From the IMG/VR virus record IMGVR_UViG_3300024518_001496, positions 1-26,752 of that record: DNA of 26,752 nucleotides; one strand, 5' to 3'. Position numbers and translations under genes: made by a program. Under the pieces are notes generated by a model that had not been told where the DNA came from, did not search any database, and worked only from the letters and a program-made list of their open reading frames with translations. Positions within the stretch are counted from its first letter, which is position 1. Every line of letters starts with the position of its first letter. Source of the stretch: a virus. Below, piece by piece: positions 4,103-26,752 of the stretch.

Positions 4103-4713
4103 TGGCCGACCGGGGGTACATTATCAAGGGGGTAAGCTCTATCTCAGGCGACCCCTACTCCGATGATGCTCGCGTGCTCATTGAGTATCCCGATGGAAGG
4201 ACAGAGTGGAAGCAGATTGGGGATAACGTACCAGGAGGGTCGATCACTAAGATCGAGGATAAAAGCATTAGTGTTATCCCTGAGCTAAGACGAACAGCCA
4301 GCGGCTACGGAGATCTTGTCGAAGACGATGAGTACACAATGCCCTTGGCAGATTATAAGCCCCCACAGGATGAGCCTTTCAAATGGGATAGGGTGAGTCC
4401 GACTGATTTGATGGCTATGCTTAGGCAACAAACAGCAGTTGTAGCTAAAGCTAACTTGGAAAGAGAAAACTTTTGGGAGAACCAGCAGGACCAAAGACCT
4501 GAAGATTTTGAGTTTACTACGGAAGAGATGAGGAAGTACGCAAAAAGAGGGCTAACTGAGCCCCAAGCAAGGGCTGAGAGAACAGCCGCAACAAGATTAG
4601 AAGACGCAGCTTTTGCGGAAGAACTGGCTTCAGCCGCTCTGACACGCACTGAGGGCTCCCAACAGTATAATGACCTATACAAGAAGTTTCAGAAGATTAA
4701 AGAGGAAGACTAA
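4102..4713 (+). CDS. Hypothetical protein upstream of portal
   Basis: A 203-residue protein, coupled to both neighbours by TAATG overlaps. Residues about 5-60 look like a small beta-rich domain (GYIIKGVSSISGDPYSDDARV, then IEYPDGRTEWKQIGDNVPGG, then ITKIEDKSISVI), a pattern of short strands and turns. The second half, from about residue 95 on, is helical and charged, with many Glu, Arg, Lys and Ala (EFTTEEMRKYAKRGLTEPQA onwards), and ends with a probable coiled coil and an acidic tail. No family is recognised. It probably acts in head assembly or is a minor structural component, by position. Confidence 0.6.
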   Translation: MADRGYIIKGVSSISGDPYSDDARVLIEYPDGRTEWKQIGDNVPGGSITKIEDKSISVIPELRRTASGYGDLVEDDEYTMPLADYKPPQDEPFKWDRVSPTDLMAMLRQQTAVVAKANLERENFWENQQDQRPEDFEFTTEEMRKYAKRGLTEPQARAERTAATRLEDAAFAEELASAALTRTEGSQQYNDLYKKFQKIKEED

Positions 4714-8678: not shown

Positions 8679-9809
8679 ATGGCTATTAGCCCTGATGTAT
8701 TGGCGTCATGTCTTGTAGATTTGATGCCGTCTTATTCAGAATTGTTTGTCCAATGGCATCCAATTCTTCAAAAAGTCCTAGAGAAAGGCAATATGGACCG
8801 CAGTGTTTTGCAGGGTCCGTTCCGTGAGTTCGTCGTTGTGACGGGTGGACCGGGTACGGTAACGCAAATCGTAACTGGTTCTGAAGTCATCGCTGGCGGA
8901 CGTAACCAGAATGCTCTGCGAGGAAACACATTTGCTCCTCGTCTGATTTATGCGTTCGATGTTCCTGGTAAGGATCTGGCCGAAGCAAACGGCGAGATGG
9001 ACCTTGCTCGTATCATCAAGCATTATCCTGAGCTTGCCCTCTCGGACTTTCATGAAATGATTGCCCTCCAGATGGCAACGGGTACAGCAGGAACGGGTGT
9101 TGGGGGCTTCCTTACCTTGAACGGAAATACTACGTACAACCCACAAGGTGCTGCTCGAACGGGCGCAATCCAGATTGATACCCCTGCTAATCAGGTAACT
9201 GCTGGTAATACGGTCTTTGGATTGAACCAGGGAACAACGCCAGGTTGGACTAACCAGTTTGGTGCGGCTCCATTGGGAATGCTTGCAGGTAACGGTCGTG
9301 GTGTCATGCGTCAGGTATATTTCGCATGTGCTCGTCAGCAAAAGACCATCGGTCCTGTTGACTTGTTGCTCGGGGACGAACTGTCTTATCTTAACTATCT
9401 TGATAGTTTGGATGCCCAGGTGCGTATCGTTCAAGATACTACCAAGGGTGGTGACCGTGCTCCTAAGCAAATCCGACAAGGTGTTAAGTTCCTCGACGCT
9501 GACTTCTACTTGGAAGAAGACATCAACGTAGCTGACGCAGCTTACGCTGGTTCTTTTGCAGCGCCCGGTGGACCTGCTCCCTTGGGTAACGCCAATGGTG
9601 GTATCGTCTACATGATTAACACCTCGACGTGGCATTCTTACACGCTTGGTCATGACGCAGGCAGAGAAACCAAAGGTGACTTTGCAGTTCGTGGTCCTTT
9701 CCGTATCCCTGAGCAAGACTTGTTCAGGTATGAAATCGTTCTTAACATGGGACTCCATACCACTCAGCTTCGTGCAAACGGATGCGTGACTGGCTTGGCA
9801 CTTCCGTAA
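8679..9809 (+). CDS. Major capsid protein
   Basis: A 376-residue protein with a strong AAGGAG site seven bases before ATG 8679 and only two bases after the scaffold stop. It is assigned as the main shell protein from its place after portal and scaffold genes, its length, its mixed alpha/beta look and its highly regular codon use. Visible segments include an N-terminal helix (LMPSYSELFVQWHPILQKVL), a beta-rich part with VVVTGGPGTVTQIVTGSEV, a helical spine-like stretch (MDLARIIKHYPELALSDFHE), Gly/Asn/Thr-rich loops in the middle, and VRGPFRIPEQDLFRYEIVLN near the end. An HK97-type fold is expected from the head module type, but I cannot show it from motifs alone. A long reading frame on the opposite strand is an artefact of codon bias. 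Confidence 0.83.
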   Translation: MAISPDVLASCLVDLMPSYSELFVQWHPILQKVLEKGNMDRSVLQGPFREFVVVTGGPGTVTQIVTGSEVIAGGRNQNALRGNTFAPRLIYAFDVPGKDLAEANGEMDLARIIKHYPELALSDFHEMIALQMATGTAGTGVGGFLTLNGNTTYNPQGAARTGAIQIDTPANQVTAGNTVFGLNQGTTPGWTNQFGAAPLGMLAGNGRGVMRQVYFACARQQKTIGPVDLLLGDELSYLNYLDSLDAQVRIVQDTTKGGDRAPKQIRQGVKFLDADFYLEEDINVADAAYAGSFAAPGGPAPLGNANGGIVYMINTSTWHSYTLGHDAGRETKGDFAVRGPFRIPEQDLFRYEIVLNMGLHTTQLRANGCVTGLALP

Positions 9810-10929: not shown

Positions 10930-13182
10930 ATGAACTTAGCTGACATTCGGAACGCTGCTTTCCATCAAGCTGACTGGGGACCAAAACAAAGCCCAGAAGC
11001 AAAAGCACGAATGAATCAGTTTATCAATCGAGCCTATAACTTGATTGCTTTGGAAGCTCCTTTCCTTTTCTTTGAAGACATCCTCCGCTTTGCTACCGAA
11101 CCCGACATCAACCCAGATGAGGCAGATCCCACTACTCCTGTGAATACAGTTACCTTTTCTCCTGAAGCAGCAGCTAGTAATATCACTACAGCTAACTCAT
11201 GGGTTGTTGACCAGGATAACGAAGGCGCTGCTGGGGTCATTAACTGGCCTGTTGACCGTAGCTGGGATGGACGTGTCATTGAGCTTAAAGATAATAATGG
11301 GGTTTGGCACCGCAATATCATCCGAACAGTGTGGCAGGATCCTGAAACACCAGAGGTTCCTGCAAAAGCCGCAACCGCAACGATCCATGTCGAGGAAATC
11401 CAAGGTGTCACCTTCGTTGATTTGGGGGACACTATCTCAATAGCGAATGCACCCCTGGTGTGTACTGCACCCCCACCTATCGCTACACCACCGAATCAGT
11501 TTTATCAGCATCCAGATCCGACAACGCAGGCTGAATTGATTGCGGGGGTTCCATTTACACCTTCAGGTGGGGTCAATGATCCAGCAGGGGCTTTCCTCCC
11601 TATTTGCAGTGCGACCACCGTACCAGCACTCCCGGCAACAGTAGACCTAACGGCAACTGTAGCAGGGGCTGCGGGTAACGTTATCGCCTTAGAGTTTCTT
11701 CCCGCATTAGGGAATGCAGGGCTTCTAGTCTCCTCAGCGTCTTCGCCTGTTCCTAGCTTAGGACCAATAAATTTTGCTGGAGGAGCCGATGTAGTCCCAG
11801 CGATCCCTGGGAAGAAGCATATCTCTTTCTGGATGCCATGGGATACCGTACGCTTTGGGGCTGGTCCTTTTCAATATCGAATCTACACCGAAGAATATGC
11901 GTTACCGGATGATGTGATTCAGGTTAACTCCACCCGGCTCTGGGAAACAAATAACACTTGGCCCATGCGGGTGATTAGCCAGTATGAAGCTGAGCAACTT
12001 AGCTTACTAAACACGCATAGAAACGTAGCTAAGGGTATCCCACGGACGCTCTTCCGCCGCACTCATTACCAGATGCCAGCACCTGCCGTACCTCCTTTCG
12101 TATCTCAGTACAATGCGGTAGCAGACCTCCCGTCACTTCTCGGTGCAGGTTGGCGGGGACCAGAACCCGCAGGTACGTTTGAATATCAGATTACATACTG
12201 CTGGGGCGCAAGAGACATCTGGTTTAGGAACCCTGGTCCGCATCATTGGGGAGCTAATGCCATTGATCCGGTCAATACGGTAGGAAAAGCTTGGGATGCA
12301 ATCGACGGTAATGAGCAGTGGGGGCAACAGAGGTATAGGGAGCCCCGATGGGAATCTGCTCCGAGCCCTGTATCAGCCCAGGTGATTACAACTAATATCG
12401 AGCTAAATGGTGCTTTAGGTTTTGCTGCACGACTGACCCTTCCTAACATCGAATACATCCAAGGCTTTTACTGGAATCTTGTGGCAAGAGACTCCACTGC
12501 GGCCCTTCAACCTCCAGCCACTGACGGTACGTTTTTTGAACGGGCACACGCGCAGAAAAGTGGCTGGTTTGTACGTATCTATCGCAGGCGCGTGGCAACT
12601 GACTTCACTAACTATGACCAGCTTGGTGCAGCAGGCGGGCGGGATCCCTCAATCGGTGTGCGGTCAAGTAGTGCTCCCTCTGACCAGCTTCTACATAAGA
12701 TTGAAGAGGATACTAGCTTTTATCTTCTTTCAGAAGTCCATATTGATACGAAGAACCAGGGGTTCTTTCTCGATGACGGGCAACTTCTTCCTGACTATAG
12801 TCGCCGTTTGCGCGACACACATGGTTATATGAACATCGGTCTCTACCCAAATCCCGACAAGAGGTACGAGGTAGAGGTTCGTTGCTTGCGCCGTCCACGA
12901 CCACTAACTAATGATACAGATGCACCTTATATCCATGCTGAAGCTTGTGACGTACTTATTGATCGTACTCTCCAACTGTTGTACGAAACAGAAGGTAATC
13001 GTCCCATGATGAAGTCAGCAAAAGAACGTTATGAACGATGTCTGATTACTCTCACTAAACGCTATGGTGATCTTCGTCCTGAAGCTGTCGCCGTAAGAAG
13101 GCGTATGGTACGCGCACGTAGAGGTTTTAGTATACGAAACCCACTACGCGGGAGTGGCGGAACATCGTTACCTTTCCCTTGA
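10930..13182 (+). CDS. Head-tail adaptor-like protein with large internal insertion
   Basis: A 750-residue protein, start ATG 10930 with AAGGGGG upstream. Both ends look like a podovirus head-tail adaptor (gp4 or tail-tubular-A type). Residues 1-55 give a helical segment, MNLADIRNAAFHQADWGPKQ, then RMNQFINRAYNLIALEAPFLF. Residues about 635-720 give MNIGLYPNPDKRYEVEV, then RRPRPLTNDTDAPYIHAEAC and a helix ending LLYETEG, the usual y-P-x-P-D-x-x-Y-x-x-x-V then L-x-x-D-x-D-x-P pattern. Usual adaptors are far shorter (roughly 160-220 residues), so some 500 residues are inserted between. The insert is Pro-rich and beta-rich and includes a DLTATVAGAAGNVIALEF stretch (residues about 239-256) like repeats in other phage surface proteins. 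The role is to join the portal to the tail nozzle; the insert may protrude. Confidence 0.7.
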   Translation: MNLADIRNAAFHQADWGPKQSPEAKARMNQFINRAYNLIALEAPFLFFEDILRFATEPDINPDEADPTTPVNTVTFSPEAAASNITTANSWVVDQDNEGAAGVINWPVDRSWDGRVIELKDNNGVWHRNIIRTVWQDPETPEVPAKAATATIHVEEIQGVTFVDLGDTISIANAPLVCTAPPPIATPPNQFYQHPDPTTQAELIAGVPFTPSGGVNDPAGAFLPICSATTVPALPATVDLTATVAGAAGNVIALEFLPALGNAGLLVSSASSPVPSLGPINFAGGADVVPAIPGKKHISFWMPWDTVRFGAGPFQYRIYTEEYALPDDVIQVNSTRLWETNNTWPMRVISQYEAEQLSLLNTHRNVAKGIPRTLFRRTHYQMPAPAVPPFVSQYNAVADLPSLLGAGWRGPEPAGTFEYQITYCWGARDIWFRNPGPHHWGANAIDPVNTVGKAWDAIDGNEQWGQQRYREPRWESAPSPVSAQVITTNIELNGALGFAARLTLPNIEYIQGFYWNLVARDSTAALQPPATDGTFFERAHAQKSGWFVRIYRRRVATDFTNYDQLGAAGGRDPSIGVRSSSAPSDQLLHKIEEDTSFYLLSEVHIDTKNQGFFLDDGQLLPDYSRRLRDTHGYMNIGLYPNPDKRYEVEVRCLRRPRPLTNDTDAPYIHAEACDVLIDRTLQLLYETEGNRPMMKSAKERYERCLITLTKRYGDLRPEAVAVRRRMVRARRGFSIRNPLRGSGGTSLPFP

Positions 13183-13437: not shown

Positions 13438-15852
13438 ATGTCAGACCGTAGAGCGAGGGACACACAAGGACCACTGAGGATCCGCATTGAGTCAGGGAAG
13501 CTTTTCTCCCCTGACACAATAGCGGCTCGCATTGAGAATATGCTGGAGACGGATGAGGGAACTCTTCGCTCTATCATTGGTCCTGTCCCCTACGGTAACA
13601 ACGTCACTGCACTTGATCCGCCAGCAGCTTTTGCTCCTAGCTATGGTATCGTAAGTGGTATCTCCCATAGCTTGTTACGCGACAGAGCCAAAGAGTTACT
13701 CATGGTAATGACACAGCCCGAGGCCATTAGCGGGTTTAGTGCAGTGGAGAGGCTACTGTTTTTCATTGGGGCTTTCGCAGAGGCTACATGGCAAACTCTT
13801 TATTCGTTTTCAACCGCCACAACGGCTGACATTGTACGTTTTCCAACTCAGTTTGAATCTACGCCTAATGGGGTTGTAGTCATTCCTCAGATGGAGAGTC
13901 GGCCTTACTTCGTAGATGCGGAGATGTTTTGTGCCCCTCTAGGTTATCGCCTAACACCTTCCCCCCCAACAGGAGCCGGTCCTGAGTCCACACTGTTCTC
14001 ATCACGGGGCGATGAGATGCAAGTACCTAATGTTTCGGGCTACTCGCATGACCGAAATATCTATAGCGCATGGTTGCAGTCAACATCCACTGTGAGACCA
14101 ACGACTCAGATGCATGCTGCTTTTGGGCGCTGCCGTATAGGTACAGTCCATACCTCAGACGCTTTAGAGGGAGATGCGGGCAGCAGCACAGCAGCGATTG
14201 CCTTAGCAGCAGGTATCTCTCCTTCTCAGCTACTCGAAGGCTCCTACGAAGCAGCAGTACAATGGGTAGATAAGTACGGGAACTTTTCTCCTATCTCCCA
14301 GCGTAGTGAGGCTGTTACTTTTGACGCGCAGTTTAATGCCGAGGTAGACGTTACTTCGAGCAATGGGTTCAAGGGGATGACAGACCCCACAAAGGCAGGG
14401 TTTAACAGCGGCATATCCATTTATGGTTATTCTGAAAAGGCATTGGTGCAGCCTGTTTCCTGGTTAAAAAAGCAGATACTATGGTCTAACATCAGCGTAG
14501 AGAGACAGAAAGATAAAGTCGATGCAACCAAAACAGTAGGCAGGTTACTCCTACGTACCAAGGACATCAACAACACTGGGGACACTGAGCTTTATGCGGT
14601 GACTGGTAACGCCATCGGCGGTGCTTTAGGTTTCGCTACGATACCAGACAACATCTCTACGATGTACCCTGATAATACACCCGACTCCTGGCTCTCAACA
14701 AAGGCGCTTGATGTTGTGGCTATGCCAGGGTTTAAGCTCTGTCGATTGGCACTGGGTAAGATGTGGTTTGCAAATGCAGAAGGCGACCCCGGTCTCGTCC
14801 GCTGGTCAATGCCAGGTCGATGGGGGACATTGCTTAAGGACGATTTTCTTTATCCTGATCCTGCGGGTGGGGAGATAACAGGTCTCTGGGCAGTGGCAGG
14901 TGGTATTCTTATCTTTACTAGGGAGTCCACTTTCTTAGCCACGGTAGATTCTCAGATGACAGGGCTATCAGTGCAGACACTTAGCTCTACAGTGGGCTGT
15001 GTGGCTCCTAGTAGCATCGCTACACTAGATTCGGGCCTAACCCTATGGTTAGGTAAGAACGGCTTCTATGGCTACGTAGACGGTAAAGTAGCCTATGCTT
15101 CGGAAGAGCTTCGCTACGAGCTAGGCTACATTAACCAAGCACGAATGATGCAAGCTGTTGCTTCTGTCTCCCCAGTGTACGGAGAGTACAGGTGCTGGGT
15201 GCCTATGCATGCGTCTAAAACAAACAATATTTGCTGGGTCTACGACGGGAAGCAGCCCAATGTAGGCTGGCGAAGGCGCTCTGACATTGCTGCCTCTGCG
15301 GTTTGCACAACTAAAGATCATCGTTCATATATGTTAGCAGCAGGCGTAACAGGGGCTGAAGACGAAGGTCATGGACATGGGGGTACTTGCGGGATCTACC
15401 TACTAGACCATCACATACCAGCAACCGCTTTTGTGGCACCTACAAAGACCTTCACCATAGAGACAGCTTGGCTTCTTAATGAGAAAGTTGGGGATGGAAC
15501 TGGGGGTTATGAGAAACAGACTCCTGTTACAGTCTACTTTTGGTTAAGAGAGACAACAGTGAACCAGTTTACTGTCTCTGTCTATAGGGACTGGCGCAAG
15601 GCGCTAATAGAAACAGCAACAGTTGAGGCACACCCAGTAAAAGACCCACCTCCTTTCTGGGGGGCAGCTACGTTGAATGTAACAGATACGACATACCGCA
15701 GGAAAAGACCTTATTGGACACGGGCTCAGATCTTTGTGCCAAGCTGCGAAGTGTTTAAGCTTGAGATCAACTCAACGGATCCCTTTGAATTCATGGGACT
15801 CTCGTTTGACTATATCCCGCACCCTACGGGTGGGGCACGGGTGCAGCCATGA
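13438..15852 (+). CDS. Tail nozzle / DNA-stabilisation-like protein
   Basis: An 804-residue protein that probably forms the tail tube end or plug of a short-tailed phage. The segment at residues about 484-555 is the best evidence. It reads GLWAVAGGILIFTRESTFLA, then a stretch with a GC-V-AP-S-S-I-A core, then a Gly/Trp strand LTLWLGKNGFYGYVDGKV. This GG-L-x-I-F-x-x-x-S then G-C-x-x-P-x-S-I then G-L-x-W-L-x-x-x-G-x-Y pattern is typical of the beta-propeller-like nozzle proteins (P22 gp10 and T7 gp12 types) as I know them. The rest is beta-rich. The start has only a weak GTGGGT upstream. The gene follows the adaptor, as expected. The stop overlaps the next start (ATGA). Confidence 0.72.
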   Translation: MSDRRARDTQGPLRIRIESGKLFSPDTIAARIENMLETDEGTLRSIIGPVPYGNNVTALDPPAAFAPSYGIVSGISHSLLRDRAKELLMVMTQPEAISGFSAVERLLFFIGAFAEATWQTLYSFSTATTADIVRFPTQFESTPNGVVVIPQMESRPYFVDAEMFCAPLGYRLTPSPPTGAGPESTLFSSRGDEMQVPNVSGYSHDRNIYSAWLQSTSTVRPTTQMHAAFGRCRIGTVHTSDALEGDAGSSTAAIALAAGISPSQLLEGSYEAAVQWVDKYGNFSPISQRSEAVTFDAQFNAEVDVTSSNGFKGMTDPTKAGFNSGISIYGYSEKALVQPVSWLKKQILWSNISVERQKDKVDATKTVGRLLLRTKDINNTGDTELYAVTGNAIGGALGFATIPDNISTMYPDNTPDSWLSTKALDVVAMPGFKLCRLALGKMWFANAEGDPGLVRWSMPGRWGTLLKDDFLYPDPAGGEITGLWAVAGGILIFTRESTFLATVDSQMTGLSVQTLSSTVGCVAPSSIATLDSGLTLWLGKNGFYGYVDGKVAYASEELRYELGYINQARMMQAVASVSPVYGEYRCWVPMHASKTNNICWVYDGKQPNVGWRRRSDIAASAVCTTKDHRSYMLAAGVTGAEDEGHGHGGTCGIYLLDHHIPATAFVAPTKTFTIETAWLLNEKVGDGTGGYEKQTPVTVYFWLRETTVNQFTVSVYRDWRKALIETATVEAHPVKDPPPFWGAATLNVTDTTYRRKRPYWTRAQIFVPSCEVFKLEINSTDPFEFMGLSFDYIPHPTGGARVQP

Positions 15853-16706
15853 GTTGGAAGTATCCTTTTTCTCAGCTTACTGAGGGTGGTGTCGTTGAGA
15901 TTGATGGCTTAAACCGTGGCTTTCTTCAGGCTGTTAATGAGGTTCAAGGCCAGCTTAATGAGCATAACTGGGATAAAGCGGCTGTACGTTCGATAATAAG
16001 AAATCCAACGGCTTCACCCAACCCCGCCCTTTGGGATCCAACGCTCAGGCTTAATTTTACGAGCGATACTTTTTTAACTGAAGATGCGTTCTTCTCTTAT
16101 CAAGCCCCGGCAGTGGGAACTGCCATCGGACAGAACACGGTTATTAACGACGGTTCCGTAGACGCAGGTACAGGACCGAATAAGAACACAGCACCTACTA
16201 TCTTCGATCCCGTGGAGTGGCTGACTGTGGGAAGAGCCGATCAGATCGGATGGGCCGGGGCATGGGCGGTCCCCGGTGATCTCCGCTGGCATATTATGAG
16301 TGAAGAAAGCTTTCCTTGTGCAACTCAGTTTTTCGCTAAAACGGAAATGCAGATATACATCCTACTTTCTTTTCAGTGGCTTGGGATAAGGCCAAGCGCA
16401 GGTTCGATGTTCGGCTTAGAACTTAACGGTAATTTACTTACCGAGAGTATTATTGGGTCAGGTGACCTACAGATAGAACCCTATAATAGGAGCATCGACG
16501 GCACCACTCCCTCACCAGAGAGGATGGAGGCGGCACCAAATCTTTGCCCTGATTCATACCTTGGCTGGCCTTTTTGTGTGGAGGCTGTTGTCACAGTTCC
16601 TCCTGGAGTGACAACGGTAGCCGGTGTGGTGCGTAGGTGTGCCTCCGATAATACACCAAATGCTATTGGTTCGAGAGAGCTAATCGTACTTAAGTTAGGG
16701 AGGTAG
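15849..16706 (+). CDS. Fibre/appendage-like structural protein, paralogue 1 of 3
   Basis: A 285-residue protein starting in an ATGA overlap with the nozzle gene. The N-terminus has an F-x-x-L-T-E-x-x-x-x-E-x-x-x-LN-x-x-F pattern with a short helix (GLNRGFLQAVNEVQGQLNEH), probably the virion attachment part. The remainder is beta-rich, with QIYILLSFQWLGIRPSAGSM near the middle, and ends with a conserved-looking pair of strands: a Pro-Gly turn VPPGVTTVAGVVRR, then SRELIVLKLGR. The same order is found in the next two genes, so the three appear to be diverged copies. The fold is probably a jelly-roll-like sandwich used for surface binding. The role as a tail or head fibre is inferred from position after the nozzle gene. 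Confidence 0.6.
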   Translation: MSWKYPFSQLTEGGVVEIDGLNRGFLQAVNEVQGQLNEHNWDKAAVRSIIRNPTASPNPALWDPTLRLNFTSDTFLTEDAFFSYQAPAVGTAIGQNTVINDGSVDAGTGPNKNTAPTIFDPVEWLTVGRADQIGWAGAWAVPGDLRWHIMSEESFPCATQFFAKTEMQIYILLSFQWLGIRPSAGSMFGLELNGNLLTESIIGSGDLQIEPYNRSIDGTTPSPERMEAAPNLCPDSYLGWPFCVEAVVTVPPGVTTVAGVVRRCASDNTPNAIGSRELIVLKLGR

Positions 16707-16708
16707 CT

Positions 16709-17557
16709 ATGCCTGAGATTAAGTTTGATCCTTTTTTAGAGGAAGAAGCTTTTACAGCAGACTCACTCAACAATCGGTTTGATGATGTAGCTAATGGGAT
16801 CAATGACATTGTCGTTGATGGGATTGCTGAAGGGGCATTAACAGGCGTCCACTTGCAAGGCGGAGTGGTTTTAGTTGACACAATAGAGTTCCCTTATGCG
16901 AATCCTGCAAGTGGGTTTTACTTCTGCAACACCATTGCTGGTATGCCAGGAACCGGAACTTGCTACTATAATGGTGCTGGAGGAGGAGGGACGTACTGGG
17001 ATTCTCAACTTAATGATGGCGACTGGACCCCTATCGTAGACGATACTGGGCAGGAACTAAAGATCTCTTTCAATGCGATACAGTTAAACAGTCCGACGTA
17101 TGATCTTACCGAAGGGATCGCTGGGATCCTGGTCATGTTGAATGTGGAAGTTGGGTTCGTAGGGGCTATGCTTGCAGACCCACAAAATCCAGGCCAGTTT
17201 ATAACTGGTGATAAAAAGGAAGTCGGAGTCGCGATTGCCCTCCAAGGACAGTCAATCGGCCCTTTATTTGAGTGGAACCATATTCGGACTTCCACAGGAG
17301 CAAATACAAATCTACGTACGACTAGGACGATTTCAGCTAGCGGAGATAGGAATGTCCCTGAAGGTCAATGGATCTGGGCAGACGTACCCATACGTACTCT
17401 TATTACTGGTGACGACATAAGTAGCTGGACCGGAAACGCTATCTTGGGTGTACGCGGGGTGATTTCTGTTATCCTTACTGATACCAGGATGCGAGGCAAC
17501 GTTAAGCTTAGGAATGCAAATCTTAGCATCTTTCTGTTAAGATCGGTCTTGGACTAA
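16709..17557 (+). CDS. Fibre/appendage-like structural protein, paralogue 2 of 3
   Basis: A 282-residue protein with a strong GGGAGGT site before ATG 16709, two bases after the previous stop. The N-terminus reads FDPFLEEEAFTADSLNNRFD, matching the pattern of its neighbours (F-x-x-x-x-E-x-x-x-x-x-x-S-L-N), and leads to a short helix. The middle is Gly- and Asn-rich (YNGAGGGGTYWDSQL). A strand region (AGILVMLNVEVGFVGAMLAD) and a C-terminal end of LRNANLSIFLLRSVLD follow, in the same order and size as in the other two. Pairwise identity looks low by eye, so the duplication is old or only the fold is shared. It is likely part of a receptor-binding or head/tail decoration structure. Confidence 0.6.
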   Translation: MPEIKFDPFLEEEAFTADSLNNRFDDVANGINDIVVDGIAEGALTGVHLQGGVVLVDTIEFPYANPASGFYFCNTIAGMPGTGTCYYNGAGGGGTYWDSQLNDGDWTPIVDDTGQELKISFNAIQLNSPTYDLTEGIAGILVMLNVEVGFVGAMLADPQNPGQFITGDKKEVGVAIALQGQSIGPLFEWNHIRTSTGANTNLRTTRTISASGDRNVPEGQWIWADVPIRTLITGDDISSWTGNAILGVRGVISVILTDTRMRGNVKLRNANLSIFLLRSVLD

Positions 17558-17567
17558 GGAGGTTTGC

Positions 17568-18434
17568 ATGTCAGACATTGTTTACAAGCACCCACCTGGA
17601 AATGCACCCCTCATCACAGGGGGAGTACCAAATGCGTTGACTATTGAAGAGAATCTTTACTTCCCTAATGCATCTGGTGATTTAACTAGGGATTCTTTAG
17701 AGGCAGTGAATGGGCACCTTAGTGAGCGCAATCTTGAACCAGACACACGTTTTGACCGCAGCCATGTACAGAGAGGTGAATTCACAGGCGCTGGTGCAGT
17801 AGGGTCAACGGCTAATCTTGATTTCTTTGATACGTCTTTTTATTGGAATCAAATACGGAGAGAAGCATGGCCACTAGAGGATCCGGTGGCCCCAAACGTA
17901 CCGACAGACACTCAGCTAATGCCAAAACATATCGCAATACCCGGTGCATGTTGTACCTTTTATGTACCTGAGTCAGCTACGGATAAGGGTTCTGTCCTTC
18001 TTAGTTGGAACATTGGTTGGTTTAATGATGGTTGCTTCACACGGGGTGAGCTTTATACGTCTAATGTGTCACGCATACAGTTATTTTGGGACGATGTGCC
18101 GCAGCAGACACAAAAACGAGTGTGCCCCCCTGCGGTGGTTGTTGAGACAGATCCACCTGAGCTACCGCAGCAGTATGCTATGTTCCTTTCTAGCCGAGAC
18201 TTCGCCCGTACATACACAGGGCATAAGTTGATTAAAGAGGTAGAGCCGGGATGGCATACAGCGGCTTTGAAGATTAGTTGCCCAAATGGGTCACAGGAAG
18301 GGGCAGGGGAGCAAGGGGAAAGCTGGATCCCTATATATGAGAGTAGGCCTACGAATAGAGTCAGGCAGACTCGTGTAAGGGTACGCTCTATGAGATATAT
18401 CTGGTTCAAGAATGTTAATGATGTGGTCCCGTAA
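17568..18434 (+). CDS. Fibre/appendage-like structural protein, paralogue 3 of 3
   Basis: A 288-residue protein with the best ribosome binding site in the window (AAGGAGGT before ATG 17568). An N-terminal extension of some 25 residues precedes the shared part, YFPNASGDLTRDSLEAVNGH, followed by LSERNLEPDTRFDRSH, a common N-x-H/x-N helix-turn motif in phage fibre N-termini. A strand block, KGSVLLSWNIGWFNDGCFTR, corresponds to similar blocks in paralogues 1 and 2. The end has a P-G-W-H-T-A-A-L-K strand, then TRVRVRSMRYIWFKN. The strand/P-G-turn/strand pattern is common to beta-sandwich appendage proteins. It is the last of the triplet; a Lys-rich protein follows after 10 bases. Confidence 0.6.
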   Translation: MSDIVYKHPPGNAPLITGGVPNALTIEENLYFPNASGDLTRDSLEAVNGHLSERNLEPDTRFDRSHVQRGEFTGAGAVGSTANLDFFDTSFYWNQIRREAWPLEDPVAPNVPTDTQLMPKHIAIPGACCTFYVPESATDKGSVLLSWNIGWFNDGCFTRGELYTSNVSRIQLFWDDVPQQTQKRVCPPAVVVETDPPELPQQYAMFLSSRDFARTYTGHKLIKEVEPGWHTAALKISCPNGSQEGAGEQGESWIPIYESRPTNRVRQTRVRVRSMRYIWFKNVNDVVP

Positions 18435-18444
18435 GGAGTAGCAG

Positions 18445-19425
18445 ATGGCTATCGGTAAGAAAGCAAAAGAAAAAGCAGCAGCAAAAAAGTTAGATGAGAC
18501 CCTTAATAAGTATCTGCGGATAAACCCTGCTAACGGAAAGAAGCAGCAAGAGACGGCTAAAGCTAAGGAGACTAAGGCTAAGGCGGATACTAAAGAGCTA
18601 GGAACATCTGGGGATGACACCGAGGCAATACGAACGCTTCCTGAAGCTGAAGCTGAAGCTAAGCCAAAAGCTAAGCCTAAGCCTAAGCCAAAGCCAAAAG
18701 CTGCGACTAAGCCTAAGCCTAAGCCTAAGCCAGATGCGTCTTCTGCCATTACGGACAAAGGAAGGTTGGACGTAGCTAAGGATAATCTAGCTTACGAGAA
18801 TACTCTTCTTTCCAATGAAGAATACGAGGCGGAAGTAGAAGCAATGAGGGTTCAGATGGCAGCAGAAAAGGCTGAGTTTGATGCAGAAACAGCAGCTAGG
18901 CTGGAGGCTAGTCGAACGGGTAGCCCTACTGAAGGTAGGTGGGAAGGAGAGGAGTGGGTTAGTCCTGAAGATCTAGCAGAACGCAACCGTAGGATGTTTC
19001 ACGAGGACTCCATTGCCGATTGGGCAGACAAGCAAATGGTTAGAAATCGCCAGCTTCACGCCTTACTTGAGCTTCAGCGACAGCTACAAACGAGCGTCGT
19101 TGAGGGTGCCGAGGAGGAAGTTGCCGCAGAGGATCAAGCCATCGAAGATCAAAGGCGAGCAGAGAGACAGGGTGGAGACGCACGCAGGCTACGTGAGGAC
19201 CAAAGAAAGTGGGGTCAGGTAGGGGAATACCAGCCTCCACCTCCTGAAAGTGAATCGGATTACTATACCCAAACGTCTGAGTCTGAATATGAAATGCCTC
19301 GTCGCTTGCAGACAAGCGACTCTGGCTATGAGGAACGACGTTTAGGGACTAGCGAAAGTGTGCCTGCTACGCCTAGAGTAAGACGAGTATGGGACGGAGC
19401 CAAAAACCGGTGGGTGAACCAATGA
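18445..19425 (+). CDS. Lys-Pro-rich, coiled-coil and repeat protein
   Basis: A 326-residue protein with a good AAGGAG site before ATG 18445. The N-terminal 60 residues are Lys/Ala-rich. Residues 67-96 form an Ala/Glu/Lys-Pro repeat ending KPKPKPKPD. Residues about 120-270 are highly charged and helical, probably a coiled coil (AERNRRMFHEDSIADWADKQ, LLELQRQLQTSVVEGAEEEV). The C-terminus has three imperfect repeats of the type Q/G-TS-E/D-S-x-YE-x-RRL and ends VRRVWDGAKNRWVNQ. No enzyme motif is seen. The stop overlaps the next start (ATGA). Within a run of virion-internal-like genes, it is likely an internal head or ejection protein or an assembly linker. That is inference. Confidence 0.6.
   Translation: MAIGKKAKEKAAAKKLDETLNKYLRINPANGKKQQETAKAKETKAKADTKELGTSGDDTEAIRTLPEAEAEAKPKAKPKPKPKPKAATKPKPKPKPDASSAITDKGRLDVAKDNLAYENTLLSNEEYEAEVEAMRVQMAAEKAEFDAETAARLEASRTGSPTEGRWEGEEWVSPEDLAERNRRMFHEDSIADWADKQMVRNRQLHALLELQRQLQTSVVEGAEEEVAAEDQAIEDQRRAERQGGDARRLREDQRKWGQVGEYQPPPPESESDYYTQTSESEYEMPRRLQTSDSGYEERRLGTSESVPATPRVRRVWDGAKNRWVNQ
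18643..18732 (+). repeat. Lys-Pro/Ala-Glu low-complexity repeat tract
   Basis: Repeated GAAGCT, AAGCCT and AAGCCA codon pairs encode E-A and K-P dipeptides (residues 67-96 of the protein). Such Lys-Pro tracts form stiff, extended, basic spacers. The tract makes a long spurious Gly-Leu-rich reading frame on the other strand. Confidence 0.85.
19270..19365 (+). repeat. Three C-terminal (Q/G)TS(E/D)S repeats in the Lys-Pro-rich protein
   Basis: Units start at 19270 (QTSESEYEMPRRL), 19309 (QTSDSGYEERRL) and 19345 (GTSESVPATPR). Serines are coded by TCT in one unit and AGC or AGT in others, so identity is kept at the protein level. The motif is acidic-Ser/Tyr followed by RRL. Confidence 0.75.
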
Positions 19426-20672
19426 GTACCGCTAACATACTAAAAGGTTTAAAGTTTGCCGGTGGGCTTGCTCTAAAGGCTGCGCCGATGCTTGGCCCTG
19501 CGGCAGTTCCATTAGGAATTGCTTCTACGATAGCAGGAGGCGTAGTAGGAGGGGCACTTAAGGATAAGAAGAACGCAGCCCTTCAAGCCGCACTTAAAGC
19601 CGAGACAGGCCCAGGTAGGGAAGCTGCCGCTGTAGCGGAAGCAGCTAACAGAGCTAACATCGGTAACCAGGCACTTGCTCCTCACATAATCGCGCAGGGA
19701 CCACAAGCGGGACGCTCAGGAGGACGGACGTTTGCTCCTTACTCAGGACAGAAAGCAGCAGAGAACCGGGAGCTTGTGCAGAAGACAATCGACAAGGCAG
19801 GCGCAAAGACAAAAGAAGCAACGGCTCAATCAATGAAAGATAGTGGCGATCGGCAGTTTGCTCTTAGAGCAGCAATCGAAGAGAATAAAGCTGCTCAGCG
19901 AACCGCGACAGACGAACAGTTATTTGGCGAACGTAACAAGAAGACAGGCGCACGGATGGGCGGAGGAGGCTTAGTCGGGGCAATCGGAGGCAAAGGTGGT
20001 GCCCTAGAGAAAGTTGTTGCTGACTGGAAAGCTAAGAATGACCCCTTTGGTGGGACAATGGCAGAGGTAGCTGAAGAAGCCACAGGAGGAGCACCTGCTG
20101 AAGCAGCCACCTATAAGGTACGCGAAGGGGATACCTTGGGTGAGATTGCCACAAAGAATAAAACTACTATTGAGGCATTACAGGCAGCAAACCCTGACCT
20201 CATTAAAAACCCCAATCTTATTGAGGAAGGCTGGCAGCTAAAGATCCCAGGTACAGAAGCACCAGCAGCCGCCGCAGCTAGCGGAAGCGCCCAAGCAGCC
20301 GCAGCACCCACTCAGGAGGCACCTGCCCGCCCAAATATGTACCGTGATGTTAGGGATCAGTTTAGGGAAAGAAAAGAAGCACGGGAAGAGGAGCGCAGGG
20401 TCGAGGGCATCCTTGAGGAGGATGCTGCTACGGAAGCAGAGATAGGAGCAGAAAATGCACCACCAACCCTTGATGTAGCAAACTTATACCGACAGAGATT
20501 ACGTCAACAATACGGAAGCTTACCGCAGGAAACTCAAGTTTATCTGGATAGAACATTGCACCCTGAGAGTTGGGTTGAGCGATCCCCCGAAGACCAAAAA
20601 GCGATGATCAATATAATGACCACGATATTTGAGACCCAAGGGTTTAATACTGACGTAAGAATCGGGGATTAG
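19422..20672 (+). CDS. LysM-domain virion protein (putative internal/ejection protein)
   Basis: The start is set at ATG 19422, in an ATGA overlap with the previous stop, giving 416 residues. An upstream ATG at 19389 in the same frame lies within the previous gene and is less likely. Residues 5-42 are hydrophobic and Gly/Ala-rich (LKGLKFAGGLALKAAPMLGP, then GIASTIAGGVVGGALKD), like a membrane-interacting or glycine-zipper segment. A LysM domain spans residues about 230-277: YKVREGDTLGEIATKNKTTI, then ALQAANPDLI and a GWQLKIPG end. LysM binds peptidoglycan N-acetylglucosamine chains. The parts around it are Ala- and Lys-rich and probably disordered or helical. No catalytic lysin domain is visible. 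A role in cell-wall contact during DNA entry is plausible. Confidence 0.75.
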   Translation: MSTANILKGLKFAGGLALKAAPMLGPAAVPLGIASTIAGGVVGGALKDKKNAALQAALKAETGPGREAAAVAEAANRANIGNQALAPHIIAQGPQAGRSGGRTFAPYSGQKAAENRELVQKTIDKAGAKTKEATAQSMKDSGDRQFALRAAIEENKAAQRTATDEQLFGERNKKTGARMGGGGLVGAIGGKGGALEKVVADWKAKNDPFGGTMAEVAEEATGGAPAEAATYKVREGDTLGEIATKNKTTIEALQAANPDLIKNPNLIEEGWQLKIPGTEAPAAAAASGSAQAAAAPTQEAPARPNMYRDVRDQFRERKEAREEERRVEGILEEDAATEAEIGAENAPPTLDVANLYRQRLRQQYGSLPQETQVYLDRTLHPESWVERSPEDQKAMINIMTTIFETQGFNTDVRIGD

Positions 20673-20674
20673 CG

Positions 20675-22324
20675 ATGCCAACTTTAGATGAAATGCTTAC
20701 TGTCTACTCAGGCAAGAAGAGGATGCGTACGCAGAAGACGATGCAAGACATCGGTGATGCTCTCCTCGGTCAGCCCGCAGAGGATGAGGAAAGGTTTACT
20801 TCTAAGGAGAAGATTGCTCTCTATATTAAGCTGGAAGAGCTTCGCAATACACGAGTAAAGCAGGCCCAAGCAAAAGCTGCTGGGGATGCGAAACTAGCAG
20901 CAAGGTATCAAAAGGATGGGGATGTTGATGCGAGAACAGCCGCTTCACTGGCTGCTACTGCACTTGGTTCCAAAGATAAAGCGGCGAAAGCAAAAGCCGC
21001 CCGATTTGCCATAGGTGTGGAGCAGGCAAGCAAAGATCTGAAGGAAGCTAGAGCCTTTGGGGAAATGAGTGACGCACTAAAACCGACAGCAGCTAAACAA
21101 ATTGAAGACCAGCGAGTGTCTCTTAAGCTGGGAGGGGCAGAAATTACCCCTTCAAAAGCGAAGACTATTGTAGGTCTATTGAATAAATTCAAGGGCAATG
21201 ACAGTGACTTTTTTGGTTTCTTTAACACTCTCGCCACAAGTGGTGTGTGGGGAGAAGGACCGGATGCTTTTATGGCAGAGTTGCAGGATGCAGCACAGCG
21301 GGAATGGGGTGCTTCGACTGGGCTCGCTGAGCATATTAAAGCATACAACGACATAAAAGGGTACATAGATGCAGATGGTAAGGCTCATGGGAAGTACGCT
21401 ATAGCACAAGCAAATATACCGGTCTTAGAAGCAAGGATCGAGACCGAACAGGCCAAAACTTTTCGCGTTGGAGGTACTTCTGCTCGACAGCATAAAGAGA
21501 TGTTTGAGTTTATGCGGGGTGTGACCGCCGATACAACAGATGAAGAGCTTGGGCTGCTGCTGAGTCAGTTGGGTATGGGGGGAGCCCCAGGGCCGTCTGA
21601 CTATGAGATGAAGATACTTGAAGAGTTAAATGGAGAAGGCTTAACAGAACAGCGAGATAAGATCATATCTTCCCCTGAGTTTGCTGCCTGGTTTAAAGAC
21701 TCAGGTTACCGAGACCCACTTACTGCCTTCAAAGCTCGGCTACGAGAAAGGCAGCAAGAGATTAAAGCATCGAAGAAACATGACAAGTTTTACGATCAGC
21801 TAAAGCGAATGGGCTACGATGATGCAACAGCACGAGAGTTTGCCAAGGCTCGTATGGGAGAGTGGCAAGACCGTAAGGATCGCTTTGTTCCTCGTCCTAA
21901 AGACAAGCCAAAGCTGACAGCTTCTTCTCTTGCAGCAGGTGTGGATGCACAGGGAGCCCTTGAGGATAAACTTAAGAAGCGCCAGGTAAAGAAAGCTGAA
22001 CGTAACCAAGCAAAATCGTTAGCTAGAGAAGCAGAAGCAACAGAAGCAAGAGATGAGATGAAAAGTCTTCAAGCTGTTAACGAGGATATTGAGAAAAAGT
22101 ATCGGGAAGTGTTTGGTCTCCAACAAGCTCTGGGCGGAAAGGGAGCCGATACAGTATTAAAGGGCATGAGTGAGACAGAAGAAGTCTCACTAGAGGGCAC
22201 CGATAAAGGGAGGGTCGCACCTGCTGGACAAACCCCCTTGATGCAGAAGATGATCGAGGCCCGAAAAGCACGCTTGCTAAGAGAAGCACAACAAAAGAAA
22301 GACGAGACTGAGGCTTCAAAATGA
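20675..22324 (+). CDS. Coiled-coil internal virion-like protein
   Basis: A 549-residue protein beginning two bases after the previous stop, without a strong ribosome binding site, so it is probably translated by coupling. It is rich in Ala, Lys, Glu and Gln and appears almost wholly helical, with long charged helices (IKLEELRNTRVKQAQAKAAG) and a Lys/Glu-rich C-terminal coiled coil (KKAERNQAKSLAREAEATEA). The region about 230-330 has more compact sequence (VRGVTADTT-type loops and LGLLLSQLGMGGAPGPSDYE). No enzyme motif is recognised. Size, composition and place between a LysM protein and a giant protein match the internal core/ejection protein sets of podoviruses. The stop overlaps the next start as ATGA. 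Confidence 0.6.
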   Translation: MPTLDEMLTVYSGKKRMRTQKTMQDIGDALLGQPAEDEERFTSKEKIALYIKLEELRNTRVKQAQAKAAGDAKLAARYQKDGDVDARTAASLAATALGSKDKAAKAKAARFAIGVEQASKDLKEARAFGEMSDALKPTAAKQIEDQRVSLKLGGAEITPSKAKTIVGLLNKFKGNDSDFFGFFNTLATSGVWGEGPDAFMAELQDAAQREWGASTGLAEHIKAYNDIKGYIDADGKAHGKYAIAQANIPVLEARIETEQAKTFRVGGTSARQHKEMFEFMRGVTADTTDEELGLLLSQLGMGGAPGPSDYEMKILEELNGEGLTEQRDKIISSPEFAAWFKDSGYRDPLTAFKARLRERQQEIKASKKHDKFYDQLKRMGYDDATAREFAKARMGEWQDRKDRFVPRPKDKPKLTASSLAAGVDAQGALEDKLKKRQVKKAERNQAKSLAREAEATEARDEMKSLQAVNEDIEKKYREVFGLQQALGGKGADTVLKGMSETEEVSLEGTDKGRVAPAGQTPLMQKMIEARKARLLREAQQKKDETEASK

Positions 22325-25300
22325 GCGCGTTTGATGATCCGTTACGTGGGATGGGGCCTCTTTCGCCAGCCGAACAGGCAGCTTTTGACGCTAAGATAAA
22401 GGCTATCAGGGCACGCACTGAGCCTGAGCCTGAAGTGGAAGCGGAAGAGCCGACTGAAACTGAGTCCCTAAAGAGTGAGATGAGCCGTAAGCGTGTACGG
22501 GAGATGGGGGCACAAGAAGCTTATAAGCAACCAAAGTACCTTAGCGCATTCGGGGAGGGGCTCAACTTAGACACTTTTCTAGGCGAACTAGGAAAGAAAC
22601 CAGAGCTATGGAAAGACGAGAATGTACAGAAGCTTGCTGAGATTGAGTTAAAGAAACGGTTTGGTTATATCCAACCAAAAGAGAAAGCCCCTCAACTCTA
22701 CTCGATGCTGGTTGCTAGCGAAAAGGCTAAGGAATCTTTAGACCTAGCACGCGACAAGCTGACACCAAAAGACCTACAGGTCTGGGGTGCAGAGTATACA
22801 GACGCAGAAGGTAACCCGCAGTACCTAGAACTCTCACGCATAAAGACCGAGAAAGAAACAGAAGCTGCTAAGCATCGACGTTTTACTAAAGGAATTGAAA
22901 AGGTAGGTACTCCTGAAGGGGTACTAGAAACAATCAATGTCATTCCAGCAGATCTCCAAAAGGCTCTGGCTAACTCTAAATTAGAGTGGCAGCTACTTCA
23001 AGAGTTATCCGACAAGGTAGGTCGAGGTTTGACTTTTGAAGAGGCTATCACCCGAACGGACACCCCGGAAGGTAGACGGCTGGCCCAGATAGCTGAGCAT
23101 AAACGTAAGCGCGGCGCACGTTTTGCTCTCCCTCTCACAGACTCACTGCAAGGGGACACTGCAATTGACGTAAATGACTCCATTCGGCGCTTATCATTAG
23201 CTTATGAGTCAGAAGAAATGGCCCGATTAAAGCGGACCTTTAAGAGCCTGTCCAAGGAGGAATATGCGGATCTCAATGATAGGTCCATAGAACGCGCAAA
23301 GAAACGAATGCGGGAGATCACAGCTTTAAATACAGGAACCCTTTGGGTTGATGTGGATCCTGACGGTACAACCCGGAATATTATCAACAACCCAGCCTGG
23401 GCAGGTGGAAGGGTAACGGCACCTATTAGGGCAATGTGGGCTGGTCTACAGACGCAGGATCAATACTTTGGTCGAGCCCCAGAGACTCTCGGTAAGGAAG
23501 GGGGTCTCGAATGGTTTGGTAGACAAGCTCTCTCGACGATGGTGGGAGCAGCACTTCACGCCGGGGAATGGGGAAGTGACGAGCATATCAAACTTATCCG
23601 TGAGGGCTACGACATTACTGATGACTTCGGTATCGTAGCTAAGTTCCTCACACCTAAGTTCTTAGAGCGAGAGCAGCTAGGGAACAGAGGCCCAGAGGTG
23701 GCTCTTGGACTAGCAGGGATGTTTGGTCTTATTCTCTTGGACCCAGACATCTTAACGCTACCAATCTTCGCTGCTACGAAACCTGTGAAAGCGTTATGGA
23801 GGTCCGGTAGGATCCCTTTAACTAGGGTACATAAGCTACAGAAAACACAGAAGCTAGCGAGAGAGCAGAGTCTGCTACCAGACGAGGCTCTCTTAAGACC
23901 AAAGCTGGAGGATCCCACTGAGTTTGATTCCTCTATAGCAACTCATATCAACGAGTTACGTCATCAGGACCAAGCACTAGGTGACTATGCTGCCGCAGCA
24001 GTAGGGCTACGTGTTGGCACCGAGCCAGTGCAAGAGGTCCATCTTGTCGGGCTACAAAGAGGTAAAGAAGCTGCCCGGAAGAAGATTGAGGAACTTGAGG
24101 GAAAGATCAAGCTATCAGAGGACGCAGACAGAGTACGTTGGCTTAAAGAAGAGAAGTTCAGGACTGAAGTTAAGCTGGTAGAGACAGAGCTTGAAGCGGC
24201 TGACATTGCTTTAGACGCAGCGAAAGCTACTATGAAGCTAGAGACAGATCTTTTGAATGTTAAGCCAGGGTTCGTCTTAAAAGACAAAGCCGGGAAGGTA
24301 CTGACCTTTCCCCTCTTTTCACAGCGACTGAAAGGTTTAGAGAAAGGATTACCAGTAGCCGCAGAGAGGATTCGCCAACAACTAGAAGAACTCCCTGAGC
24401 TTACAGAAGCGTTGAGAAAAACCTATGACACTGGTATTTCAACAGAGAAACTATCCATATTACACTATTACCTTAAAACTAAAGCCGTTAGGAACGCTGA
24501 TGGGACTTACGATGGAGGGCTTAAAGGGCTACGCCAGCCTAAACCAGGACCAGGGTGGTCTAAAAAAGGCGCAAGGGTAATCGGCATTAAAGAGGAGCTA
24601 GTCCTCCAAGGCTGGACAAAAGCCCAGGCAGAGGCTGCGACTGATCTTCTTATGCTCCCTAAGCCTGCCACCAGCTTACGGTTCTTGGAGCGAGGAGCCT
24701 TATTCGAAGCCCAACAGGCTAACCTAATCTGGTTTCAGAAACACGCAGGCTTTATGCTTGCACAGAGCAGGCTTCAAAAGATGCGTATCCAACAGGCTCG
24801 CTTGGCCCAGCGGTTAAACGCTAAGGCAGGAGTTAAGCCAGGGAAGTTTACACCTAAAGGGAAACCTGCGAAGACCCGCGCTGGCTTAGCTGAAAGACTA
24901 CAGAAGATGCAGGCTAAGCACACCAAGCAAGCTATCAGGGCTGCGGGTGCAAAGGCAGGCCACAAAGTAGCAATAGAAGGAGAACGACGTATCCTTAACG
25001 TCGAAGAGCTATACCGTGAGGAGATGGGTAAAGTTGCTGATCTGCTTGGTCTTATAATCAAGCACGCACGCACAGGGAAAACTCCTTTACAGGGTGTACA
25101 GTCTAGGATTACTGCCGGGGCAGACATCTTAGCCAAGGCGACAAAGAAAGAACTGGCTGAGTTTGAGAGGATAGTAGACCCAAACATCCTCGTAAAGTCC
25201 ATCGACGATACCTTTGACGAGACAGTTATGAACCCCTTTAAAGTCCAAGGAGGGGAAGAGGCCGCACGCTTCGGTCGAGTCATGGCGAAGCTGAAGGCTG

Positions 25301-26752
25301 AAAGGGCTACGTCAGATAGGGTTGTCTTGACTGGGAAGGAAGTTGCCGATTTCCAGGCAGGTGTCGAAGCTCTGGAGAGGCTAGCCCCTATGATTGGGGG
25401 TAAGTTTGCCAGCCATCGGCAGGCAGAGGTGCTGCTGAATGCTATGCACTCACCTTATTTACCTGTACGCTTTAAGCTCACAGAGCTAGGTAAATGGCAG
25501 TATGCGGCTGATCTAAGTCGTGTCCCTCGTAGGGTATTCGCGAAGATCTCCCCTGCCTCTCAAAGACTTGGTGATCTGGGCCAAGACATGACTGAGATTC
25601 TAAAGCGATCCATTCAGGTAAGAGCTAAGTTTGAAGATGAGATCCATGATTTGATTCGCTTGAATCCTAATGATAGCCCTATTCGGGTACTTGCAACGTA
25701 CCTAATGTCCACGAACCCCATGAAGCTACGTAACGGATGGACCTCAGTCAACACGGGAGCCGCTTCTATCTACCGGAAAGGTATTGAGCAGATCGTGGAA
25801 GACTCACGGATAATCGAAGAGAAAGGCGGCAAGGTTATCCTTAAGGCAGACAAGTTAGCCGAAGACGTAGGGGACACCAAAGCTTTGGATGCCATTGCAC
25901 GGGCATGGCTCCCGCAAGAGAAGTTTCCGCCAGGACGTATGATTGAGCTACGGAAGATTGCCTACAACATCATCAAGAAACAGTATGATGACGATGCTCT
26001 GGACTTCAATGCTTTAATGCTAGAGATGAAGAAAGCCACGAAGAACGCAGGGGCTCATAGTAAAAAGGATGGCTACACCTTTAATCTTAACTGGGGCGGA
26101 GCAGGTAGCGTTGATGATGCTACCAAAGCCTACTCCTTCGGGGCTTTAGGGATCGGGCATGCAATGGTGCTTAATGACGCCGCACGCACAGCAACTAAGA
26201 TGGTCGGGGGGATTACGACGCAAGCTGCTGCTGATGCTAGCGACATCCTCACAGGTGGCGGTGCCGCAATCGCAAAGAGCGCCAGAGCAGAGGGCAAGAA
26301 GCTACAGTGGCACCCCGAGGAGCTATTGGCTACGCCAGGTGGCGCAGGGGTAGTGGGAGATGTCACGGATGCTCGTATTGCCGATGGGTTTGATGCCATG
26401 GCACGTTACGGCATCTCTGTCATTGATCCTACTTTGGTTACGCAGCAAAAACGAAAGGTGATCGATCTCGTAAGGATCTCTAAGAACCCTGACGGGATTA
26501 ACGCCTTTCTACCTACGACTTTGATTAGTGAGATTGACAAGGCCGCAGGTAAGATTGTTAAAGAGACATGGAAATACAATGCTCGTGGGCGTGATGATCT
26601 GGGACTAGGTAGTGCCATGAATGCCTTCTGGCGTTCGTATCGCACGTCGCTAGTTTCTGGGCTGCTCGTCCCTAATCCTCGTTACTGGGTTAACAACATC
26701 TTTGGTGACTTTGCTCAGATATGGTGGGGGCATGGGCTGGGCACAGCGACTA
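22321..26752 (+). CDS. Giant virion-internal-like protein, 3' end outside window
   Basis: Starts at ATG 22321 (ATGA overlap) and stays open for all 1477 remaining codons, so the protein exceeds 1477 residues and is incomplete. The N-terminus is acidic, followed by helical regions. Residues about 358-490 read NPAWAGGRVTAPIRAMWAGL, later GPEVALGLAGMFGLILLDPD and LTLPIFAATKPVK. The G-x-x-x-x-I-x-LDP-D/L-x-L pattern with flanking hydrophobics recurs in very large phage structural proteins. A coiled coil follows at about 578-645. Near the edge is LVPNPRYWVNNIFGDFAQIW (1449-1468), a P-x-Y-x-x-x-N-x-x-G-D motif common in giant virion proteins. These proteins are often packaged in the head and ejected, sometimes carrying enzymes. 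I see no catalytic motif in this part, and no virion RNA polymerase signature. Confidence 0.75.
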   Translation, partial: MSAFDDPLRGMGPLSPAEQAAFDAKIKAIRARTEPEPEVEAEEPTETESLKSEMSRKRVREMGAQEAYKQPKYLSAFGEGLNLDTFLGELGKKPELWKDENVQKLAEIELKKRFGYIQPKEKAPQLYSMLVASEKAKESLDLARDKLTPKDLQVWGAEYTDAEGNPQYLELSRIKTEKETEAAKHRRFTKGIEKVGTPEGVLETINVIPADLQKALANSKLEWQLLQELSDKVGRGLTFEEAITRTDTPEGRRLAQIAEHKRKRGARFALPLTDSLQGDTAIDVNDSIRRLSLAYESEEMARLKRTFKSLSKEEYADLNDRSIERAKKRMREITALNTGTLWVDVDPDGTTRNIINNPAWAGGRVTAPIRAMWAGLQTQDQYFGRAPETLGKEGGLEWFGRQALSTMVGAALHAGEWGSDEHIKLIREGYDITDDFGIVAKFLTPKFLEREQLGNRGPEVALGLAGMFGLILLDPDILTLPIFAATKPVKALWRSGRIPLTRVHKLQKTQKLAREQSLLPDEALLRPKLEDPTEFDSSIATHINELRHQDQALGDYAAAAVGLRVGTEPVQEVHLVGLQRGKEAARKKIEELEGKIKLSEDADRVRWLKEEKFRTEVKLVETELEAADIALDAAKATMKLETDLLNVKPGFVLKDKAGKVLTFPLFSQRLKGLEKGLPVAAERIRQQLEELPELTEALRKTYDTGISTEKLSILHYYLKTKAVRNADGTYDGGLKGLRQPKPGPGWSKKGARVIGIKEELVLQGWTKAQAEAATDLLMLPKPATSLRFLERGALFEAQQANLIWFQKHAGFMLAQSRLQKMRIQQARLAQRLNAKAGVKPGKFTPKGKPAKTRAGLAERLQKMQAKHTKQAIRAAGAKAGHKVAIEGERRILNVEELYREEMGKVADLLGLIIKHARTGKTPLQGVQSRITAGADILAKATKKELAEFERIVDPNILVKSIDDTFDETVMNPFKVQGGEEAARFGRVMAKLKAERATSDRVVLTGKEVADFQAGVEALERLAPMIGGKFASHRQAEVLLNAMHSPYLPVRFKLTELGKWQYAADLSRVPRRVFAKISPASQRLGDLGQDMTEILKRSIQVRAKFEDEIHDLIRLNPNDSPIRVLATYLMSTNPMKLRNGWTSVNTGAASIYRKGIEQIVEDSRIIEEKGGKVILKADKLAEDVGDTKALDAIARAWLPQEKFPPGRMIELRKIAYNIIKKQYDDDALDFNALMLEMKKATKNAGAHSKKDGYTFNLNWGGAGSVDDATKAYSFGALGIGHAMVLNDAARTATKMVGGITTQAAADASDILTGGGAAIAKSARAEGKKLQWHPEELLATPGGAGVVGDVTDARIADGFDAMARYGISVIDPTLVTQQKRKVIDLVRISKNPDGINAFLPTTLISEIDKAAGKIVKETWKYNARGRDDLGLGSAMNAFWRSYRTSLVSGLLVPNPRYWVNNIFGDFAQIWWGHGLGTAT

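Follow-up and report, generated by a model that had tools for sequence, protein, structure and literature searches.

Phage fibres are usually homotrimers seated on tails of another symmetry. The A, B and C chains of complement C1q form a known heterotrimer. The tail fibre gp24 of the myocyanophage Pam3 consists of a docking helix and a TNF-like knob and assembles as a homotrimer (PMC9608196). In Kuravirus SU10, the three identical N-termini of a fibre trimer contact the tail unequally (PMC9509320); the symmetry mismatch is solved there by a single sequence with unequal contacts. Three consecutive tail genes of the virophage DSLV2 are reported to give a 1:1:1 heterotrimer (PMC12724248), and the three-gene operon gp56-gp55-gp54 of phage DEV gives one hetero-oligomeric podovirus receptor fibre (PMC12892993). 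TNF-like phage fibres (Pam3) and three-gene heteromeric receptor complexes (DSLV2, DEV) are thus already known singly. In the open-access literature searched, no description of an obligate set of three TNF-like paralogues was found.

The window analysed here, i.e., the whole stretch of 26,752 nucleotides (26.75 kb) of an uncultured virus record, carries the late genes of a podovirus. The coordinates of the features are collected in Table 1. The adaptor was assigned by a slim margin (27.4 bits against PF24175, the SU10 adaptor family, with a cut-off of 27.0). Three genes follow directly 3' of the nozzle gene and are referred to as A, B and C; their predicted sizes (285, 282 and 288 aa) and order were confirmed from the list of open reading frames (ORFs). 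The start of A overlaps the stop codon of the nozzle gene (ATGA), and both B (GGGAGG) and C (AAGGAGG) have good ribosome-binding sites 5-6 nt upstream of ATG. Further downstream, among probable ejection proteins, lies one (19389-20672) whose middle part is a LysM peptidoglycan-binding domain. The window ends within a giant ORF (22321-26751) that exceeds 1477 aa and matched neither PHROG nor Pfam; its counterpart in the relative G014 has 2033 aa, and it is probably an ejection or channel protein. Near the terminase gene, an ORF of 143 aa (118-549) has a Pox_D5-like (primase C-terminal) match.

Table 1 Features of the window, with the segments and signals of the A, B and C genes
Feature	Position	Strand	Basis
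Terminase large subunit	1732-3456		
P22-like portal	4713-6476		
Capsid	8679-9809		
SU10-like adaptor	10930-13182		PF24175 match
Nozzle (tail tubular protein B-like) gene, 804 aa, synteny anchor	13438..15852	+	PHROG virion/internal-virion profile matches
Protein A, 285 aa (MSWKYP...LNEHNW...SRELIVLKLGR)	15849..16706	+	ORF; family in all relatives; 97% profile match to C
A residues 1-50, conserved N-terminal segment, putative docking	15849..15998	+	Column conservation; close-pair N-terminus identity
A C-terminal part	16275..16703	+	Local A-C profile alignment from A residue 143; C-terminal parts alone 79%
Shine-Dalgarno-like GGGAGG of B	16698..16703	+	Sequence
Protein B, 282 aa	16709..17557	+	ORF; single copy in 28/28 records
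B residues 1-50, conserved N-terminal segment, predicted helix 17-32	16709..16858	+	Conservation; model; 91% match to C N-terminus
TNF/C1q-like jelly roll of B, residues 55-279, predicted	16871..17545	+	AlphaFold model; 9ib7 match
Shine-Dalgarno-like AAGGAGG of C	17556..17562	+	Sequence
Protein C, 288 aa	17568..18434	+	ORF; single copy in 27/28 records
C residues 1-73, N-terminal segment, short helices	17568..17786	+	Model; conservation
TNF/C1q-like jelly roll of C, residues 74-283, predicted	17787..18416	+	AlphaFold model; 9ib7 match

Pairwise BLAST of the window proteins remained below detection, with best E values of 0.27, 1.3 and 21 (single comparisons), and the low identity claimed by eye in the original prediction was borne out. 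Profile-profile comparison of the families against each other gave a different result. Profiles of 49-54 members each, from about 50 uncultured podovirus contigs, were aligned with hhalign on core columns. A and C matched with 97% probability over 220 columns (P 1.7e-10), B and C with 95% (P 1.5e-8), and A and B with 61% (P 1.1e-5). All three pairs exceeded the controls: the same profiles matched those of adaptor, capsid, nozzle and two further head-gene families at 0.7% or less, and none of 24 block-shuffled and reversed controls, made with somewhat smaller member sets, reached the observed score for any pair. With the tool's own alignments, the values were weaker.

A common order of parts had been proposed as well, and it holds above chance, the A-C alignment running in register from the N-terminus to the C-terminal strand. 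When the profiles were divided, A and C matched in the N-terminal (69%) and the C-terminal part (79%) and are therefore paralogues over their length. For B and C, a strong match is confined to the first 60 residues (91%); the A-B match in the N-terminal part is 42%. Split-profile comparison found no significant sequence match between the B knob and the A or C knobs (about 5%), so that the B knob is tied to them by fold alone. The LN motif described for all three N-terminal segments is present in A (DGLNRGF) and B (DSLNNRF); C has IEENLYF in the equivalent place, followed about 15 residues later by an 'xNGxL..xN' motif.

The AlphaFold models of window B (pLDDT 75.5) and C (pLDDT 73.4) are of moderate confidence (pTM 0.64-0.69). 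In both, short N-terminal helices precede a beta sandwich, the strands follow the same order, and the TNF/C1q-like jelly-roll class is matched over nearly the full domain length. The structure 9ib7 was matched by the B model with Z 11.5 and an rmsd of 2.5 Å over 132/133 residues, and by the C model with Z 9.9 and 3.0 Å over 129 residues. The nearest solved structures are identical for B and C, namely trimeric TNF-like lectins (PLTL, BC2L-C). Two phage proteins stand lower in both lists, the short tail fibre of cyanophage A-1(L) (8ke9) and, from the portal-tail complex of cyanophage A4, one chain (9k09). Monomer prediction, one of the checks suggested at the outset, thus gives B and C the same fold. 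Since A is tied to C by its profile, its sequence suggests a TNF-like fold for A too. PLTL (Photorhabdus) and the BC2L-C N-domain (Burkholderia) are the closest solved folds, but they are bacterial, lack a phage docking segment, share 10-14% identity with B and C, and no sequence family link to them was found.

The predicted order of parts is that of Pam3 gp24, which is of similar subunit size and carries its TNF-like domain behind a helical docking part at the N-terminus. According to the models, helix 17-32 of B would precede a jelly roll at residues 55-279, and short helices would precede the jelly roll of C. In contrast to the triplet, gp24 is the product of a single gene, forms a homotrimer, and has a distal glycine-rich domain and a chaperone, neither of which is seen here; inspection of A, B and C revealed no glycine-rich repeat block.

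Family libraries leave the three proteins unnamed. None matched the Pfam TNF/C1q families at E 0.1, which indicates a shared fold and not family membership, and none rose above the cut-off of any Pfam family. PHROGs gave no match for the window proteins and none that was consistent across members of the A and C families, and the three profiles found chance-level matches only when searched against PDB by sequence. Taken with the same predicted B/C fold and the occurrence of A, B and C as distinct families in every relative, the profile matches support the ancient duplication that had been predicted. We regard A, B and C as ancient paralogues; for the B knob, common descent with the A and C knobs is suggested by the modelled fold.

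Relatives were collected by nozzle-profile searches of uncultured viral contigs, which returned 24, then 59, then 68 loci in overlapping sets. According to family HMMs, A-B-C follow the nozzle gene on its 3' side in 43 of 60 sources, the window included; among the sources without this call, 12 have too little DNA past the nozzle to tell. The later set has the same order in 51 of 70 loci. The genes are tightly coupled, with gaps mostly of 2-5 nt. When 28 records were searched over their whole length, exactly one A and one B were found in 28/28 and one C in 27/28, i.e., three distinct subunits are co-encoded per genome, as a heterotrimer would demand. The sole record without C is a 31-kb fragment. 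Several contigs are near-duplicates, and hence the records are not all independent.

The position of C is not fixed. C does not adjoin B in three records (G001, G002 and G004), and in the first of them (L087, G001:C1:10204-13073) it has moved, along with the two genes 3' of it, to a place between the terminase large subunit and the portal, about 14 kb away. It is relocated in G032 as well, and the end of a C is found at a contig edge in G031. Loss of C in the L051 group was considered and rejected, as the whole-record search showed relocation. In the most distant relative, a 65-kb contig, A and B form a single ORF of 511 aa (L159:7085-8620) without a stop at the junction, and a separate C comes next; B can alternatively be read from an internal GTG. 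No second contig with an A-B single ORF was found, and the fusion is known from one metagenomic contig. In some relatives, B and C are in frame across a stop.

The three families diverge quickly and at matched rates. For pairs with related nozzles, mean identity is 0.47 for A, 0.46 for B and 0.49 for C, compared to 0.64 for the nozzle, 0.70 for the adaptor and 0.85 for the capsid. In the first 50 residues, the means are 0.57, 0.56 and 0.54, respectively. The N-terminal segment of A (2.09 and 1.77 bits/column vs a mean of 1.20) has the highest conservation apart from the C-terminal strand, and that of B reaches 1.91 and 1.64 bits/column vs a mean of 1.14. In one close pair (L048 and L050), nozzle identity is 91% and that of the N-termini 88-100%, but B reaches only 64% and C 76%. 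A faster-changing remainder behind conserved N-termini is the pattern of a constant dock that bears a variable tip.

Distance trees of A, B and C correlate with that of the nozzle (r 0.88-0.92), among themselves (0.86-0.89) and, at lower values, with that of the capsid (0.66-0.71), which gauges co-inheritance and shared constraint, not contact. Partial correlations are 0.41 for A-nozzle, 0.38 for C-nozzle, 0.31 for A-B, 0.27 for A-C and 0.20 for B-C. The original prediction had called the set possibly modular; in the sense of part swapping, this was not borne out, given that the trees track the nozzle tree. Host-range proteins often swap, and vertical descent with the nozzle is unusual for them, which counts against the explanation preferred below.

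We propose that the paralogues A, B and C jointly build the adsorption appendage of these podoviruses, most likely as one A:B:C heterotrimer, and give this reading about an even chance. A putative appendage encoded right after the nozzle gene, as predicted, is supported by synteny and the predicted fold. The conserved N-terminal segment of about 50-70 residues of each protein would dock on the tail, at the nozzle and perhaps the adaptor. The fast-evolving C-terminal TNF/C1q-like knob would trimerise through jelly rolls such as those of B and C and face the cell surface, where it would probably bind a glycan or a surface protein. In the A:B:C heterotrimer, each N-terminus would fit one of three non-equivalent places on the six- or twelve-fold tail. 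More tentatively, and with somewhat less than an even chance, the complex may be a C1q-like obligate heterotrimer of tandem TNF-like paralogues, in which triplication of the gene would let each subunit specialise for one of the unequal docking positions and would create three different inter-subunit receptor pockets.

Each described system shares a part of this proposal. The short and long fibres of SU10 are trimers docked on a podovirus nozzle and adaptor (PMC9509320), but the short-fibre tips are T4-like and there is one gene per fibre type and part. Like the triplet, the DSLV2 tail is encoded by three consecutive genes conserved as a set; unlike a TNF-like complex on a podovirus tail, it has a T4 gp37-like fold and a predicted attachment to the capsid. 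The DEV fibre is not an assembly of three paralogues: two different proteins cap a gpJ-like homotrimer. C1q resembles the triplet in arrangement only, with three tandem paralogues and the same kind of jelly-roll head, and it differs by its collagen stalk, of which none is present here.

Alternatively, A, B and C could be separate homotrimeric TNF-like fibres or knobs for three places on the tail or three receptors. Known phage TNF-like fibres are indeed homotrimeric (Pam3 gp24, PMC9608196), the N-terminal signature differs from family to family, as expected of three docking sites, and the C gene can lie at a distance from A and B. However, no loss or duplication was seen in 28 records, save the one fragment without C, the rates of A, B and C are matched, and the A-B single ORF of L159 would force a 1:1 ratio there. 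Separate homotrimers are considered the less likely reading. The one A/B/C set, the matched rates and the single ORF all fit a 1:1:1 heterotrimer, and the retention of one of each, even with C unlinked and A-B joined, leans to a hetero-oligomer; between the two, the heterotrimer is somewhat more likely.

A role as structural collar or fibre-docking proteins, comparable to the A2B tail hubs of crAss001, would leave receptor binding to another variable protein. Hetero-oligomeric docking hubs exist (PMC10172136), A, B and C behave as core genes that track the nozzle tree, and an accessory beta-rich protein occurs in 3/19 records, patchy as expected for a receptor-binding protein. Nevertheless, this role is improbable, since divergence of the A/B/C knobs greatly outpaces that of nozzle, adaptor and capsid, the modelled fold of B and C is nearest to lectins, and the accessory protein is missing from most records. 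It is very unlikely that the three proteins are unrelated, with a common short docking motif and convergence on jelly rolls. Jelly rolls are common, pairwise similarity is absent, and no sequence match links the C-terminal part of B to A or C; against this stand the full-length match of A and C, which also holds for each of their two parts, the 91% match of the B and C N-termini, and the nearest solved fold and strand order common to B and C.

With a conserved set of three diverged paralogues, the symmetry mismatch would be solved genetically, and the set would be a natural heterotrimer in uncultured phages. Moreover, the A, B and C profiles offer a handle for annotating the adsorption apparatus of these viruses. 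Deposited phages searched by tblastn with A, nozzle, capsid and portal, and with the nozzle or A of relatives, gave no relative; about 50,700 deposited phage records contained none of this clade of uncultured phages, and single-protein pattern scans with A and B returned none either. Two MAG 'chromosomes', L161 (CP070713.1) and L162 (CP070719.1), carry nozzle genes of this phage group. A host assignment from them was rejected: the adaptor and nozzle of L162 are flanked by N runs between bacterial genes, apparently a scaffolding artefact, and hence no host can be inferred.

The accessory protein has 323 aa and a proline/glycine-rich start (MARTIPAPSGGRTVPAP), and is encoded 3' of the giant late ORF (L090:15644-16615, - strand). 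It occurs in only 3/19 relatives and is a candidate for a variable receptor-binding protein; its reading as a fourth paralogue is not supported (10% match to C over 16 residues). In two other relatives, a small extra gene lies between A and B (L036:9257-9496, 79 aa; L039:9420-9692, 90 aa).
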